From positions 1 to 42,639 of the forward strand of contig CABYIR010000011.1 in the NCBI GenBank assembly GCA_902518955.1: a stretch of 42,639 bases of DNA. Direction: 5' to 3'. Source of the stretch: an uncultured Pelagibacteraceae bacterium. Lineage in GTDB: Bacteria; Pseudomonadota; Alphaproteobacteria; Pelagibacterales; AG-422-B15. Positions 9,199-42,639 of this stretch are shown piece after piece; position 1 is the first letter of the stretch, and each line of letters starts with the position of its first letter. The position numbers were made by a program, and so were the translations under genes. The notes beneath the pieces are model-generated. The model was given only the letters and a program-made list of their open reading frames with translations. It searched no databases and was not told the DNA's origin.

Positions 9199-10446
9199 AA
9201 CGTTATCAAGTTGAGTTGTATAACTCTGAGTACAATTCTTTCTCTTTTGTTTCCATTTGCCTATCTGACATTCTGTTGCTATTTGAATTGTATCACTCCC
9301 ATAACGCTCATTAATTTGGTCAACTGTAGACATCAATTTTGGTGATCTATATCTTGCCTCAGAAAATAAATCTTTTGTTTCAGTACCTTTTTCATAAAAC
9401 CCACTTAACAAAACGCCTGCCTTCTTATACTTATAATTTTCTCGAAAAATTATTTTAGTTAACTGTAAGGCTGTCTTGACTATTTGCATTGTATCATAAG
9501 TTGGGTAACTCAATGTTGTGGTTGAACTATTTGAATAATAACGGTTTCTATCAAAAGGATTTGTTCTTAAGAAAACAGAGACTGTGGAAGCAGTTAAATT
9601 TTCACCTCTAATTCTCTCTGTCGCACGACGAGCAAACGTGGTAACCGCCTGCTCTATATCATCAAGGTTTACCAATGGTTTTCCAAATGATCTTGTAGTA
9701 CAACAGCTTTTTCGAGTAGCAGAAGTTTCCTCCAAATCTAGACAAGATATCTCTCTTAATTCAGATACTGTTTTTAATCCATTAACACTCATCATTTTTC
9801 GCACCCAGGCATCTTCACAATTTTTCAATAGTTTGGCATTAAATATACCATTCGCTATTAACTTCTTAGATAGCTGTCGTCCAACACCCCATACATCTGC
9901 GATGTTGGTATCTTCTAAAACTTGATCTAAATTCTTGTATTGAATTAGTGAGCATACACCCTCTAAAGACTCATCGTCTTTAGCGATATGATTTGCTACT
10001 TTTGTTAAAGTCTTTGTTGAGGCAATACCAATACTAACTGGAATACCTGTGTATTGTAAAATTACTTTTCTCATCTGACGAACATAAGACTCATAGTCTA
10101 CATTCATATTGGTTAGCTCAATAAATGCTTCATCAATTGAATAAACTTCAATACTTGGAGCAAACTCAGATATTATATTCATAACTCGCCGCGACATATC
10201 TGCGTACAAAGTGTAGTTAGATGAAAATACAATTACATTTTCTTTTTCTACAATGTCTTTAACTTTAAAAAGTGGAACTCCCATCTTAATACCGAGAGCT
10301 TTTGCTTCTTTAGATCTAGCGATAATACAACCATCATTATTGGACAGTGCCACCACAGGTTTGTTATTTAACTTTGGATTGAACACTCTTTCGCAAGAAA
10401 CATAAAATGCATTACAGTCTATGAGTGCAAAAATTTTTTTTTTCAT
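9187..10446 (-). CDS. umuC: DNA polymerase V catalytic subunit (Y-family, UmuC)
   Basis: 419 residues, close to the 422 of E. coli UmuC. The catalytic acids are visible: Asp10 in A-L-I-D-C-N-A-F-Y, and Asp105/Glu106 in Y-S-I-D-E-A-F. The steric-gate Tyr region [10 protein letters not shown] is intact, and the V-W-G-V-G helix-hairpin-helix segment and the C-terminal little-finger domain follow. UmuC is the error-prone translesion polymerase, active as UmuD'2C on damaged DNA. Its start overlaps the umuD stop by 4 nt (ATGA). The gene should be controlled by the SOS promoter upstream of umuD. Confidence 0.95.
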
Positions 10447-36874: not shown

Positions 36875-39643
36875 TTAAATTAGAAATAAAGCTACAATAA
36901 CTAGGGATATTGTTATCAAATAAGCTACGCCTGTTTGACCACCTATAAACTTAAATATACTATCATTTTTTCTTGGAACAACTTTATCTAATACAACTGC
37001 TAAAGCAGGTAGTGTTGTCATGGCACAAACCATATTAATTAAGAACATAAATGTTAAAAGCATTCCCATATCGGCTTGGAATTTGAGAGCCGAAAAAGAC
37101 CAAGTCGATACACCAATTGCAAGAGTTAAAGCAGTAAATACTACTGCGGCACCAGTATTTGCAAAAGTCTGCTCAAATGCCTGCGATATATCCATACCTT
37201 CTTTTAAATAAGTTTGTAATCTATTATAAATATAGAATGCATAATCTACTCCAATACCTACAGCAAGAACCATTACGGGAAGAGTAGAAACTTTTAAACC
37301 GATTTGCATCACATCCATAAATGCATATCCCAACATTGTAGCAAATGTAAGAGGAACAGTGCAACAGATTGTGGCTCTCCAATCCATATAGGTTCCAAAA
37401 ACTAGAAGAAAGATTACTGCGTATACAATTAACATCATTGGGAGTTCGGATTCTTCAATTATTTCATTTGTTGCATGTTGAATTCCAACTGTGCCACTTG
37501 CTAAACGATAGTTTATTTCATCCATATCGTAGACAATTGCAGGGATGTCTTTATTTTCGTCAAAGAAACTTTTTATGGCCGCATCAGCTTTTCGGATCTC
37601 CCTGACAGTGGGCTCTAATTTTTCATCATATTGGTTTATATCTCTTAAATAATTTAATAATTTATTATTCCATAAGTCTCTAACGTTGAAGTTATTTTCA
37701 TGACCAAAAAGTATCCATTCATCAGTATTAAAATATCTATGCTCATTAATGTCCCAGTCTTCAATTGTTCCTGCGAAAAAAGAACCACTTACTACTCCAG
37801 CATCAGAAATAAAATCAGTACCTTCAGCTGGTCTTTTAAAAAATGATCTCATTGTGAAAGTCGATTCAGATTCTAAAAATTTTTGTTTATATTTTTCTAT
37901 TTCTTCTATTATATGTGAAATCGTTGTTGCTTTATGATCCTTAGTAAAAATATATATGGGCATAATTGAACAATTTTCATTCATTAAACCTGACTCAGGC
38001 CCAACTACACTTGAAGCAAATGATAATGCTCGGTCATTTCTTGGTAAATAACTCCATTTTAGATTGCCCTCGGCATACCCACTCATTCCGCGCTTAGCAA
38101 TACTAGAGAGAGAAATAACTGAAACAACTCCATCAATATTTTCTGCATACCAATGAAAATTATCTTGTGCATTCATCATATCAATAGAGCGACAAGGTGG
38201 AACCCCTTGAGATTGTGCTAAGCTTTCAAAGATAACGACGAGAACATCTGTTGTTACATTATATCTCTTCGTGATTTCTCCAATATCTTGGTTGTATCGA
38301 GCTTCTGGTCTTAGCTCAGGTGCACCTTCATGTAAATCACCTACATGTCTATCTGATGCCATAAATATTGCCCCAGCAAACAAAACGGCGCTAACAGTTA
38401 GAGTTATTGCTGCTGCTCGTGGCTTTGCTAATTTTGCAAAAACTGCAACTCTTTTTCTTCGATATGCAATGGCAGATGATGCAGACTTAACAAAATTATC
38501 ATTATATCTCGCATAAGAGGCTGCAAGAGGGAGCATTATTAAGTTGGTTATAATTTTAAAAGCAACACCAATTGAAGCCGTAATTCCTAACTCTTGAATC
38601 ATTCCAATCGGTAATAAGATGAGTGTTCCAAATCCAACAAGGTCCGTAACTAAAGCCATACTTCCAGGAACAAGAAGTCTTGAGAAACTTGCTCTAGCAG
38701 CATACTCGGAGGATCGTCCATCTATCACTTCTTTAGTAATCTGATTAACTTGTTGAATACCGTGAGAAACACCGATAGCGAAAACTAAGAAAGGAACAAG
38801 TATCGCAAGTGGATCTAATCCAAATCCAAGAACTTTTAACATCCCAAATTGCCATATTAATGAAGTTAAAGAGCAGACCAACGGTAAAAAAGTTAAAGTC
38901 CATGATCTTGAATACCAATAAACAGCTAAGACAGTTAATACAAAAGCTAAAGCAAAAAATATAACAACATTATAAGCTTCACTTGCAATATCAGAGATCA
39001 TTTTTGCAAATCCAGTTATTTCTACCTTATATTTACCAATTTCAAATTTATCTCTAATAGCTTCAATCTCTCGACCTAATTGAAGATAATCCAATTTTTC
39101 ACCTGTACGAGGATCAAATTCAGTAAGCTCAACTCTTACTAAAGATGCTGAGAAATCATTCGCAACTAAGCTTCCAACATGGCCACCCGTTAGAACTCTA
39201 TCTCTAATATTTTTTATTTCACTTTCATTTAATTCTTGAGGAGTAATATTACCAGGTATGACAGTGGTTGCTTCAAATCCTTCTTCGGTCACTCTCATTA
39301 CTCTTGTATTTGAAGTCCATAAAGACTTCATACTCGATTGATTGACTCCTGGTAGATATCTTAACGTTTCAGAAAGCTCATATAGCTTTGATAAATAATC
39401 TTTTTCAAATATTTCTCCATCAGTTGTTCTTAGAGAGATTGTAATATTATTAGTTCCACTAAGTGCATCCTGATACTGAAAGTAAGTATGAATAAATTCA
39501 TGATTTGTTGGCAACTGTTTAATAAAACCAGCATCCATTCTAATTTGAAGAGCAAAATAGCCCATCACAACTGTTAATAAAACAAATATGCCTAGTATCG
39601 ATAGCTTAAATTTAAAAACAAAATCTTCAATTTTTTGCATCAT
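36875..39643 (-). CDS. MMPL/RND-superfamily transporter
   Basis: 922 residues. The first membrane segment at about 13-33 is followed by a periplasmic loop of about 190 residues. A cluster of about five membrane segments (roughly 220-380) comes next, then one at about 410-430. A second large periplasmic loop (about 440-735) precedes the final cluster with V-M-V-L-A-V-G-I-G-V-D-Y-A-F-Y-I-Y and A-L-T-L-A-I-G. The repeat of F-A-I-G-V-S-H-G-I-Q-Q-V and A-V-G-I-G-V-D-Y identifies the RND fold. The overall plan fits MMPL-type exporters of lipids or hydrophobic compounds rather than AcrB drug pumps. No membrane-fusion or outer-membrane partner is next to it. It abuts the 3' end of the ABC ATPase gene with zero spacing. 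Confidence 0.85.
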   Translation of the reverse strand: MMQKIEDFVFKFKLSILGIFVLLTVVMGYFALQIRMDAGFIKQLPTNHEFIHTYFQYQDALSGTNNITISLRTTDGEIFEKDYLSKLYELSETLRYLPGVNQSSMKSLWTSNTRVMRVTEEGFEATTVIPGNITPQELNESEIKNIRDRVLTGGHVGSLVANDFSASLVRVELTEFDPRTGEKLDYLQLGREIEAIRDKFEIGKYKVEITGFAKMISDIASEAYNVVIFFALAFVLTVLAVYWYSRSWTLTFLPLVCSLTSLIWQFGMLKVLGFGLDPLAILVPFLVFAIGVSHGIQQVNQITKEVIDGRSSEYAARASFSRLLVPGSMALVTDLVGFGTLILLPIGMIQELGITASIGVAFKIITNLIMLPLAASYARYNDNFVKSASSAIAYRRKRVAVFAKLAKPRAAAITLTVSAVLFAGAIFMASDRHVGDLHEGAPELRPEARYNQDIGEITKRYNVTTDVLVVIFESLAQSQGVPPCRSIDMMNAQDNFHWYAENIDGVVSVISLSSIAKRGMSGYAEGNLKWSYLPRNDRALSFASSVVGPESGLMNENCSIMPIYIFTKDHKATTISHIIEEIEKYKQKFLESESTFTMRSFFKRPAEGTDFISDAGVVSGSFFAGTIEDWDINEHRYFNTDEWILFGHENNFNVRDLWNNKLLNYLRDINQYDEKLEPTVREIRKADAAIKSFFDENKDIPAIVYDMDEINYRLASGTVGIQHATNEIIEESELPMMLIVYAVIFLLVFGTYMDWRATICCTVPLTFATMLGYAFMDVMQIGLKVSTLPVMVLAVGIGVDYAFYIYNRLQTYLKEGMDISQAFEQTFANTGAAVVFTALTLAIGVSTWSFSALKFQADMGMLLTFMFLINMVCAMTTLPALAVVLDKVVPRKNDSIFKFIGGQTGVAYLITISLVIVALFLI

Positions 39644-39772
39644 AAAATAGATAGTTACCTTAATTGAGAGCCCTTTTCAGATAGGTTGTATAATTATTGG
39701 AAAATCAAAGCAAAGTACACAAAAAATAATATCTTTTTATATTAAAATTCATCCCTAATAATTATTAAGATA

Positions 39773-39850
39773 TTGATAAATATAATATTTTTTTGATATA
39801 TAAATTTGACGGTTTGTCGCATTGATATATATATTTTAATTTGATACATA
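39773..39850 (+). promoter_or_regulatory. AT-rich upstream region of the ferritin-like gene with four TTGATA repeats and a candidate promoter
   Basis: The 245-nt gap 39644-39888 is the largest in the window. It contains TTGATAAATA (39773), TTGATATATA (39793), TTGATATATA (39822) and TTGATACATA (39841), at spacings of 20, 29 and 19 nt. A possible promoter is TTGACG at 39806-39811 with TATATT at 39830-39835 (18-nt spacer). TTGAT also resembles half of an FNR-type site, but no inverted partner is present. Nothing else is recognisable in this gap. Confidence 0.35.
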
Positions 39851-39888
39851 TTATTTACATATTAACACAATTGAATTAAATTCCGTAT

Positions 39889-41088
39889 ATGGTTGAATTA
39901 TCTCAGAAAATACAAATTGCAAAAATAATTGCAAAGGACAAAGTATATAAAGTTCAAGAAAAGTGGCAAACTTCTAACACTGGGAAAAATTCTCTTACCA
40001 AAGATCCTGCATATAATGCAGCTAATCCAAAACACTTTATACCAATGATGGATGAAGATCGTTACAGTGATCGATCAAATGCTTTTGATAAAATTATTAG
40101 TGCTACACATAAACATTTTTGGGATCCAAATGATAAAAAATACATAGATTTTGATATCCCATTCGATGTTGAAAATCAAAATATTGTAGATCCAGATGGA
40201 CCATTTGGTATTGAATTACAAATACCAAGCATAAGAGATAAATTAACTACAAATCAATTGGTCAGACTTAATAATGAAAGTTTTCGATTTGTATTATCTC
40301 AAATACTTCATGGAGAACAAGCGGCCTTATCTTTAAGCGCTAGTCTTTGTCATGTACTTCGAGATCCAGGGGCTCAGGAATATGCAGCTAATCAGACCAG
40401 AGAAGAAGCAAGACATGTTGCTGGCTTTACAAGATATATTCAAGCTAGATGGGGATCGCCTTATAAAGTTGGTCCTACATTAGGCAGGGTTGCTAATGAC
40501 ATAGTTTCATCTGATGTTGTTTATAAAAAGATTATTGGTATGCAGATGATGATTGAAGGATTGGCAATGGGAGCTTTCGCTATGGCCTATGAAAATACTA
40601 ATGATCCAGTACTGAAAACTCTATTAAAGTACACTATGAGTGATGAAGCTTTCCATCATAAGTTTGGAAAGATATGGGCTGATAGAACAATACCTAAGCT
40701 GTCAAAAAAAGAACATATAAAAGTTGAAGATTGGGCTGAAAAAATATTTGTTGAGCTTCTATTTAATTTAGTCAATCCAACAGAAAAAAAGCACGTTTAT
40801 TCATGTGTTGGACTTGATTACAAATGGGTTGATCAAGAGTTTCATAAGTATATTGACCAAGGTGAAGTAATTAAAGATGAAATGAAAAATCAAAATAATA
40901 TATTTAGAGTTTTAGTAAAAACCTTACTAAAAGCACATATTATTACTGATAGAACAAAAGCAACATATGCTGAATTTGTTAATATGGATGAGCTTGATTC
41001 TGAGAGTGATACTGTTGCTGGCCAAGAAATTGCTGACCAAGGAGTTAGTACTTTAAGTGAAATCAACCAATTAAAAAAATCAGCATAA
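39889..41088 (+). CDS. Ferritin-like di-iron protein (R2/oxygenase-like), unknown function
   Basis: 399 residues with no signal peptide. The complete di-iron ligand set of a ferritin-like four-helix bundle is visible: Glu143 in H-G-E-Q-A, Glu173 and His176 in E-A-R-H, Glu223 in M-I-E-G-L, and Glu253 and His256 in D-E-A-F-H. Both Glu-to-ExxH distances are exactly 30 residues. Such sites occur in ribonucleotide reductase R2, acyl-ACP desaturases, N-oxygenases and monooxygenase hydroxylases. I cannot assign one; no radical tyrosine or reductase partner is evident. The C-terminal tail (360-399) is acidic and probably flexible. Its stop is 7 nt from that of convergent regA, a redox-responsive regulator. 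Confidence 0.75.
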   Translation: MVELSQKIQIAKIIAKDKVYKVQEKWQTSNTGKNSLTKDPAYNAANPKHFIPMMDEDRYSDRSNAFDKIISATHKHFWDPNDKKYIDFDIPFDVENQNIVDPDGPFGIELQIPSIRDKLTTNQLVRLNNESFRFVLSQILHGEQAALSLSASLCHVLRDPGAQEYAANQTREEARHVAGFTRYIQARWGSPYKVGPTLGRVANDIVSSDVVYKKIIGMQMMIEGLAMGAFAMAYENTNDPVLKTLLKYTMSDEAFHHKFGKIWADRTIPKLSKKEHIKVEDWAEKIFVELLFNLVNPTEKKHVYSCVGLDYKWVDQEFHKYIDQGEVIKDEMKNQNNIFRVLVKTLLKAHIITDRTKATYAEFVNMDELDSESDTVAGQEIADQGVSTLSEINQLKKSA

Positions 41089-41095
41089 CCTAATC

Positions 41096-41626
41096 TTATC
41101 TGGGAGATTTTTTTTGAAGAATTCTCTGTAAAGTTCTTCTGTGCATTTTGAGCCTTCGAGCAGTCTCTGAAACATTCCGATTGCATTGTTCATACACCCT
41201 AAGAATATGTTCCCATTTTACACGATCTGCAGACATAGGGTTTGCCGGAGGATCAGGAATTCTCTCATATGGTGAACGTAGAGCAGCCTCAATATCATCT
41301 GCATCAGCAGGTTTTGATAAATAATCACAAGCCCCTTCTTTGACTGCTGCGACAGCAGTCGGTATATTCCCATAACCAGTCAATATTATAATTTTGCTAT
41401 CTTTTCTTTGTTTTGAAATAATTGATACAATTTCTAGTCCATTGCCGTCACCCAATCTTAAATCAATCACAGCATATTTTGGGATAGACTCTTTAAGTAA
41501 ATGTTTAGCTTCTCTAATGGAATAAGCACCATAAGAGTTGAAACCTTTACGACTCATTGCCGTCTGAAGTCTCTTACAAAAAATTTCGTCATCATCTAAA
41601 ATTAAAAGTGAATTTTCTTCATTCAT
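41096..41626 (-). CDS. regA: Redox response regulator RegA/PrrA/ActR
   Basis: 176 residues. The receiver domain has an acidic pocket at 11-13, phosphoacceptor Asp55 in A-V-I-D-L-R-L-G-D-G-N-G-L, Thr in I-L-T-G-Y-G-N, and Lys in L-S-K-P-A-D. A proline-rich linker P-D-P-P-A-N-P-M-S leads to a Fis-type helix-turn-helix, R-N-V-S-E-T-A-R-R-L-K-M-H-R-R-T-L-Q-R. The linker and helix-turn-helix are almost invariant among alphaproteobacterial RegA/ActR/PrrA proteins. With RegB it controls respiration, carbon and nitrogen genes according to quinone redox state. The residual regB 3' end lies 4 nt upstream on the same strand. Confidence 0.95.
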   Translation of the reverse strand: MNEENSLLILDDDEIFCKRLQTAMSRKGFNSYGAYSIREAKHLLKESIPKYAVIDLRLGDGNGLEIVSIISKQRKDSKIIILTGYGNIPTAVAAVKEGACDYLSKPADADDIEAALRSPYERIPDPPANPMSADRVKWEHILRVYEQCNRNVSETARRLKMHRRTLQRILQKKSPR

Positions 41627-41630
41627 AAAA

Positions 41631-41765
41631 TTATTTTATATTTAATTCTTTCTTGTTCAAAAAAATTCTTACACATGCTCCATTGGGTTTATAATTTAAA
41701 AACTCAATATCACCATACGATTTACTGAGTAAATGTTTTGAAATAAATAGACCTAATCCTAAACC
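41631..41765 (-). pseudogene. regB: 3' remnant of the RegB/PrrB/ActS sensor histidine kinase gene
   Basis: The last 44 codons encode G-L-G-L-G-L-F-I-S-K-H-L-L (the G2 box of the HATPase domain), then N-G-A-C-V-R-I-F-L-N. The position 4 nt upstream of regA is exactly where RegB would end, so these bases belong to regB. The membrane sensor, quinone-sensing Cys, H box and N/G1 boxes are all missing, replaced by gyrB sequence from 41766. In the real genome regB is probably complete. Confidence 0.75.
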
Positions 41766-42639
41766 TTTATCTTTTGTTTGGGAAGAAAACTTTGGGTCCT
41801 GTACTTTTACTGATAAGACACTTGTGATGCCTTCTCTAATATCGTCACTACTAGTAGAAACTTGATTTTTTTTACTTACTGAATCTTCGTAAAAATTATT
41901 TACCACTCTTGTGATTGCAGATCTAAAACCAGACAGATGAGTGCCTCCATCTTTTTGCCTTATATTATTTGTGAAAGCCAATATTTGTTCATAATAGCTT
42001 TCGTTCCACCATAGAGCGCACGAGAATTCAATATTATTTTTGTTGCCCTCAATAAATACTGGCTCATCTATCAGAGGCTTTTTGGATTTATCCAAAAATT
42101 TTACAAATTCTTTTATGCCTCCTTCATAATGAAATCTGTTTTCCTTAATATCAGCTTCTCTTCTATCAAAGAAATTAATTGAAATTAATGGATTTAAGAA
42201 TGCCATTTCACGAAACCTTTGAGAAAGAATTTTTGAACTAAACTCAACATTAGTAAAAGTATCTTTATCAGGTTGGAATGTTATTTGAGTACCTTTCTTA
42301 TTATCTACTTCACCCATATCTTTGAGTGGTTCTACAGCAGTACCCTTATTAAAATTTATTTCATAGTTATGACCGTCTCTAAAAATTTTAAGATTTAAAG
42401 ATGAGGAAAGAGCATTCACCACTGAAACACCGACTCCATGTAATCCACCTGAAACTTTATAGGAATCTTGGTCAAATTTACCTCCTGCATGTAATTGAGT
42501 CATAATAACCTCAGCAGCAGAAATTTTCTCTTCAGGGTGAATCTCTGTTGGTATACCTCTTCCATTATCTTCAACTGTTACCGAACCATCTGCGTTCAAC
42601 CATACATTGATTTCATCACAATGCCCTGCTAACGCTTCA
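41631..42639 (-). CDS. gyrB: Chimeric frame: DNA gyrase subunit B N-terminal part fused to RegB C-terminal tail; 5' end outside window
   Basis: The frame is open to the window edge, with E-A-L-A-G-H-C-D-E-I-N-V encoded before the first ATG at 42599, so the true start lies outside. About 291 residues match the GyrB ATPase and transducer domains: E-D-N-G-R-G-I-P-T, G-G-L-H-G-V-G-V-S-V-V-N-A-L-S, and A-F-T-N-N-I-R-Q-K-D-G-G-T-H. The GyrB match ends after D-P-K-F-S-S-Q-T-K-D-K, around the family's conserved Q-T-K lysine. From 41765 the frame continues as G-L-G-L-G-L-F-I-S-K, a histidine kinase G2 box. The toprim and C-terminal domains of GyrB are missing. It cannot be a functional gyrase subunit. 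The likely cause is a misjoin or amplification chimera, or less likely a real deletion fusion. Confidence 0.85.
   Translation of the reverse strand, partial: EALAGHCDEINVWLNADGSVTVEDNGRGIPTEIHPEEKISAAEVIMTQLHAGGKFDQDSYKVSGGLHGVGVSVVNALSSSLNLKIFRDGHNYEINFNKGTAVEPLKDMGEVDNKKGTQITFQPDKDTFTNVEFSSKILSQRFREMAFLNPLISINFFDRREADIKENRFHYEGGIKEFVKFLDKSKKPLIDEPVFIEGNKNNIEFSCALWWNESYYEQILAFTNNIRQKDGGTHLSGFRSAITRVVNNFYEDSVSKKNQVSTSSDDIREGITSVLSVKVQDPKFSSQTKDKGLGLGLFISKHLLSKSYGDIEFLNYKPNGACVRIFLNKKELNIK

Follow-up and report, generated by a model that had tools for sequence, protein, structure and literature searches.

The window, a stretch of 42,639 nucleotides, belongs to a SAR11 (Pelagibacterales) genome and contains an open reading frame for a ferritin-like protein, here called FER, which starts with ATG. 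An AT-rich leader separates this gene from a divergent gene for an RND transporter, and a gene for a response regulator of the ActR/PrrA/RegA type faces it from the other side (Table 1).

Table 1 Features at the FER locus, in window coordinates
Feature	Position	Strand	Details
ABC transporter ATPase, 312 aa	35936..36874	+	PF00005; convergent with RND gene
RND transporter, 922 aa, MMPL domains, HAE3-like	36875..39643	-	Divergent partner of FER
AT-rich divergent intergenic region common to FER and RND gene	39644..39888	.	245 bp, 20% GC
FER, ferritin-like diiron protein, 399 aa	39889..41088	+	ORF; ligands E143, E173, H176, E223, E253, H256
regA (ActR/PrrA/RegA response regulator)	41096..41626	-	NF033791, 275.1 bits (cut-off 250)

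An earlier, sequence-only reading had assigned FER a complete di-iron site made up of E143, E173-x-x-H176, E223 and E253-x-x-H256, and the residues and their spacing are as it described, with 30 residues between positions 143 and 173 and again between 223 and 253. All six members of this 2-His/4-Glu set (E, ExxH, E, ExxH) are the same in every one of 58 aligned relatives and are kept in all 8 members of a wider set, which reaches down to 19% identity and includes relatives from Rhodococcus, Streptomyces, Nonomuraea and Burkholderia (19–26% identity). Because the ligands are invariant in both sets, we do not regard the pattern as a product of chance; the loss of ligands in close homologues, which had been named as a refuting outcome, was seen in none of the 58.

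AlphaFold2, given the alignment of 58 sequences, yielded a helical bundle of high confidence (mean pLDDT 84.7, pTM 0.88), in which residues 32–45 fall below a pLDDT of 50. The predicted model has a four-helix-bundle fold of the AurF/R2 type, with VIA Z scores of up to 19.0. The top VIA match was AurF (Z 19.0 over 270 residues at 3.5 Å, 10% identity), followed by CmlI (18.6), a putative class I R2 (18.1), and R2 and R2lox (both 17.9), scores that are mostly ties. A Foldseek search of the model against the PDB returned no match at E ≤ 0.001, and the R2, desaturase, R2lox, phenylacetyl-CoA monooxygenase and aldehyde-deformylating oxygenase (ADO) chains that it listed all had E > 0.005. Searches for solved relatives gave only chance matches with phmmer and no E value below 0.03 with a profile of alignment A3, from which the incomplete L094 copy and a small number of SAR11 copies that were nearly identical had been excluded. 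Given that phmmer, the A3 profile and Foldseek yielded nothing significant, our statements on the fold are based on the VIA comparison together with the ligand pattern. No Pfam or NCBIfam model matched FER above its cut-off, the nearest being those for ADO and AurF, and the earlier view that FER has no known role agrees with these searches, none of which found a characterised close homologue. An N-terminal membrane-binding amphipathic helix was also considered and dropped, as its hydrophobic moment was matched by 999 of 2000 shuffled sequences.

A structure that places FER inside a characterised family was the other refuting outcome named, and the comparison with its nearest structural neighbours speaks for a separate position: the fold lies near those of AurF, R2lox and R2, and the hallmarks of all three are missing. 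The radical tyrosine of R2, which lies four residues after the first ligand histidine and is missing from some R2 classes, corresponds to F180 in FER and to phenylalanine in 58 of 58 relatives, and FER had no match to PF00268 (R2) at E ≤ 10. R2lox resembles FER in its fold (Z 17.9, 16% identity) and its six ligands. R2lox has a crosslink pair, V72 and Y162. With positions taken from PDB titles, this pair falls on A146 and M218 in FER, both of which are invariant, and the NCBIfam R2lox model gave no match to the FER query. ADO gives a weak profile match over FER residues 139–270; FER nevertheless remains well under both curated cut-offs (PF11266, 16.5 bits against 28; TIGR04059, 18.2 bits against 222.65) and is much longer than the ADO models (~220 positions).

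The closest likeness is to AurF and CmlI, which share with FER the fold (Z 19.0 and 18.6), six ligands and an aspartate before the last ligand glutamate (D252 in FER). The statement that FER bears no mark of AurF holds for FER itself, which scored 13.7 bits against a cut-off of 29.6 for Pfam AurF (PF11583), but is too strong for its relatives: at E ≤ 0.01 the model matches 55 of the 58, the FER query not being among the matches, and 3 of 10 scanned relatives (L082, L106 and L107) pass the cut-off, the best with 48 bits. What separates FER from AurF and CmlI, beyond the sub-threshold score and the 10% identity to AurF, is a seventh histidine, four residues before the last ligand glutamate in AurF, which is T249 in FER and T, V or A in 58 of 58 relatives. 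PMC13061610 describes this histidine as characteristic of the N-oxygenases of the ferritin-like diiron oxygenase (FDO) superfamily, whereas a 2-His/4-carboxylate set is, in PMC12101540, that of most diiron hydroxylases; by the histidine, FER would not be an AurF-type N-oxygenase. The CylC-type dimetal halogenases, presented in PMC12101540 and PMC8406957 as having an AurF-like diiron fold acting on fatty-acid-derived carbon, are set apart by their published motifs, having QExxH and HxxDExxH where FER has EExxH (E172 is invariant) and TxxDExxH. The kind of ligands in FER is also that stated for BioE in PMC12915131.

Because AurF heads the VIA ranking, 55 of 58 relatives match its Pfam model and three of ten exceed the cut-off, FER is placed, by sequence and predicted structure, in the FDO superfamily near AurF; because it lacks the additional histidine of AurF, the tyrosine of R2, the pair of R2lox and the motifs of CylC, it is predicted to belong to a divergent, uncharacterised alphaproteobacterial branch of diiron oxygenases there. 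With its complete site, FER is very probably a diiron oxygenase or oxidase, so that this half of the earlier proposal of an oxygen- or redox-linked oxygenase stands.

To place FER taxonomically, we searched 60 genomes (the window's own included) and found it in 33 of 37 from the window's family and in none of 23 from the neighbouring family. Among 144 genomes drawn evenly from the class, 25 had FER at E ≤ 1e-20; 24 of these carry the close subfamily (E < 1e-150), a group from which G095 was omitted, its matches being distant ones throughout (E 5.1e-38). In a phylum-wide sample of 150, close matches were confined to the class (G000, G093 and G114), and two genomes outside it had distant ones (3.4e-35 and 1.0e-32). 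A scan of named genomes gave 437 relatives, the best 80 of which were used. One distant relative lies on a Streptomyces plasmid (L032, 7905-9029, + strand), flanked by genes for AMP-binding enzymes, an acyl carrier protein, DAHP synthase and anthranilate synthase in what resembles an uncharacterised natural-product cluster.

FER had been described as sitting alone behind the largest AT-rich leader of the window. The leader is indeed the largest gap between listed ORFs of at least 100 aa, but it is shared with the RND gene, and the isolation did not survive the comparison of loci. A divergent RND gene stands directly upstream of FER in 40 of 43 SAR11 loci, the remaining three being cut by contig ends, and one of the same family adjoins FER in 14 of 37 alphaproteobacterial loci outside SAR11, where other paralogues stand behind DUF1302, DUF1329 or YCF48 genes. 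The window's RND protein exceeds the cut-off of PF03176 (81.9 bits) and falls short of that of TIGR00921 (HAE3; 178.1 bits against 351.9). Within the window's family, 32 of 37 genomes have a full-length orthologue of this protein (E = 0) and a further one has a fragment at a contig end; none of the 23 neighbouring-family genomes has the orthologue. The ABC ATPase gene is present in 36 of the 43 SAR11 loci; no permease gene was noted beside it in the window. The leader itself is poorly conserved in sequence among 16 aligned SAR11 leaders, a comparison that omitted L055, L065 and L077, whose contigs begin at or just before FER. Repeated TTGATATAT-like words at 39770-39870 of the window, and palindromic TGATATATCA-like words in the leaders of L056–L059, are each possible operators.

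Outside SAR11, a YCF48-repeat gene directly precedes FER in 13 of the 37 loci, nine of which also hold DUF1329 and seven DUF1302. Truncation at the YCF48 gene affects three of the 13 and truncation at DUF1329 two; L091 lacks DUF1329 even though more of its locus is covered. Two tandem FER genes are frequent in these YCF48-linked loci. The complete genome SO-S41 carries loci of both kinds, RND-linked and YCF48-linked (L080 and L115). A gene with a CHASE2 domain adjoins the paralogue in five loci (L087, L096, L097, L106 and L109), two (L081 and L094) have only 2OG-oxygenase or acyl-CoA-dehydrogenase genes, downstream of FER, and three (L078, L095 and L112) have none of the neighbour genes sought. 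Many of the paralogues have genes for an acyl-CoA dehydrogenase, an enoyl-CoA hydratase or a 2OG-oxygenase downstream. These contexts cluster on a tree of 83 proteins, from which identical proteins, those of <340 aa and most of L038–L055 were left out: the label changes 5 times, compared with 38.3 times on average after shuffling.

The genes that recur around FER have been described together elsewhere. The C. defragrans proteins AmeA, AmeB, AmeC and AmeD are, according to PMC6394551, a DUF1302 protein, a DUF1329 protein, a photosystem II assembly factor-like protein and an HAE3 RND transporter, and their deletion lowers monoterpene tolerance. Other reports state that growth of P. putida on Tween 20 requires proteins of the DUF1302 and DUF1329 types together with a periplasmic protein and an efflux transporter (PMC10866462), that a DUF1329/YCF48/MMPL cluster is highly expressed in a benzene-degrading culture (PMC13101534) and that a Delftia DUF1329 deletion impaired growth on phenanthrene (as cited in PMC13101534). 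In our class sample, DUF1329 was present in 17 of the 18 genomes with RND (threshold E ≤ 1e-80), lying within 5 kb of it by coordinates in 10 of the 18; because of this co-occurrence and the published cassettes, we treat the RND and DUF genes as one system. All four AmeABCD-type component genes occur in the SAR11 relative G005, where DUF1302, DUF1329, YCF48 and SDR genes are consecutive (L127). Unlike in AmeABCD, its RND gene (C1:499156-501825) is separated from the other three, by >100 kb, so that they do not form a single cassette, and in SAR11 a ferritin-like oxygenase gene adjoins the RND gene. The window's own genome has a DUF1329–YCF48 pair and a second DUF1329 gene; no DUF1302 gene was seen in it, but because the pair stands at a contig start, an upstream DUF1302 gene would be out of view. 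In the window's family, 34 of 37 genomes have DUF1329; of the 23 neighbouring-family genomes, one has short matches only. In G005, a second MMPL transporter gene (762 aa; L128, 3991-7078, + strand) is followed by a LolA-like gene, perhaps a lipid transport pair.

Across the class sample, FER is associated with this system. Of the 24 FER genomes, 11 have an RND gene, compared with 7 of the 120 remaining genomes (Fisher p 4e-6). DUF1329 likewise occurs in 11 of the 24, and in 12 of the 120 (p 1e-4). Both values are uncorrected for shared ancestry; by coordinates, FER and RND lie within 3 kb of each other in 7 of the 24. Both RND and DUF1329 were missing from 12 of the 24 at the thresholds used, which rules out a constant association of FER with the transport system and means that FER is also used outside it or that partners were overlooked. 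One FER region was inspected in each of 10 of these 12 genomes: one lies behind a YCF48 gene, one beside a CHASE2 gene and eight among other neighbours, including genes for acyl-CoA dehydrogenase, luciferase-like monooxygenase, AMP ligase and FAA hydrolase.

Taken together, these data point, with about equal weight for and against, to FER being an O2-dependent non-haem diiron oxygenase (a hydroxylase, desaturase or related oxidase) for a hydrophobic substrate of a system of DUF1302, DUF1329, YCF48 and HAE3-like RND proteins. A hydrophobic molecule would cross the envelope with the help of the DUF1302 protein in the outer membrane and of the DUF1329 and YCF48 proteins in the periplasm, and the RND pump would handle it at the inner membrane. 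FER, presumably cytoplasmic, would bind O2 at a diferrous site and oxidise a C–H bond of the molecule or of its acyl thioester, a step that would either start its breakdown or detoxify it. That FER performs C–H oxidation of a hydrophobic substrate is an evenly balanced proposition, and its coupling to the envelope system in this lineage is slightly favoured. Several points stand against this reading. Half of the sampled FER genomes lack RND and DUF1329, with other neighbours in eight of the ten regions checked; and AmeD, the best-known member, has been interpreted as an exporter, which counts against coupling because export would need no cytoplasmic oxygenase. The lack of ancestry correction in the co-occurrence values, the absence of a Foldseek match in the PDB at E ≤ 0.001 and the DUF1302 gene not seen in the window's genome weigh on the same side. 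The published cassettes, as far as the accounts consulted extend, function without a FER-like enzyme, one of them in the monoterpene pathway of a denitrifier, and within our open-licence full-text library we found no paper that ties a ferritin-like protein to such a cassette.

A further-reaching version, in which FER is a built-in fifth component of these systems in many alphaproteobacteria, the hydrophobic molecule is imported or intercepted and then oxidised at the inner membrane, and one SAR11 lineage thereby handles open-ocean hydrocarbons or lipids, is tentative and somewhat doubtful. Rather unlikely, too, is the main alternative, that FER is a diiron oxygenase of general acyl-CoA or organic-acid catabolism for which proximity to RND and DUF1329 is one of several settings and not its function. 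The 12 genomes without transport genes, and the catabolic neighbours found there, are what such an enzyme would lead one to expect; against it, the RND gene recurs in the same divergent layout in SAR11 and other loci alike, and other FER paralogues stand behind the remaining parts of the same envelope system.

A second alternative concerns regA, which FER does face, as had been pointed out: the two genes are convergent and 7 bp apart. regA is the next gene after FER in 40 of 43 SAR11 loci and is present within 10 of the 14 RND-linked loci outside SAR11, which argues that the synteny is old; among the other 23 non-SAR11 loci, it appears within flanks of at most 8 kb in L106 only. This synteny and the diiron ferritin-like fold would suit an O2- or peroxide-scavenging or iron-handling protein controlled by RegA. 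However, G003 (98% complete) keeps FER and RND open on a contig (L059) in which regA is a remnant (9205-9540, - strand) that matches only the last two thirds of the gene and contains in-frame stops. No other match in G003 exceeds the regA cut-off, regB was not found in the 17-kb L059 locus, whereas regA is intact in G008, the genome used for comparison. A RegA box in the FER leader, judged against a consensus that we assumed, was also dropped, because, among 41 SAR11 leaders, the GACGGTTTGTCGC patch is confined to those of the window, L036 and L037; a second GTCGC at about -208 is present in seven SAR11 loci without the rest of the GACGGTTTGTCGC patch. Because regA has decayed in G003 beside an open FER and RND and no RegA-like leader site is conserved, the redox half of the earlier proposal is weak, and regA is best described as a neighbour rather than an established partner. 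Scavenging under RegA control, which would also leave the association with transport and acyl-CoA genes unexpected, is very unlikely.

Least probable of all is that FER acts as an AurF-type N-oxygenase on an amine, amide or hydrazone, since the top VIA rank of AurF and the Pfam matches of the relatives are set against the seventh histidine missing from all 58 (a hallmark according to PMC13061610) and the score of FER below the Pfam cut-off.

Systems of DUF1302, DUF1329, YCF48 and RND proteins are found repeatedly in bacteria that tolerate oily compounds or use them for growth, and a genetically linked FER offers a handle on them, in that its substrate would name the cargo. If the preferred reading, an oxygenase serving the envelope system, is true, then SAR11 would include one family with O2-dependent chemistry on hydrophobic compounds that is absent from the 23 neighbouring-family genomes searched.

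At the end of the window, beyond regA, an apparent gyrB–regB gene fusion was rejected as an assembly artefact. The ORF at 41631-42638 (- strand) is chimeric, being mostly gyrB (positions 53-345 of a relative's GyrB) and ending in the tail of regB. Close relatives have both genes intact and a few genes apart. In the window's genome, this fragment is all that was seen of gyrB, apart from a paralogue match at 41% identity, and the tail is all that was seen of regB; the chimera probably arose at the end of the contig during assembly or amplification.
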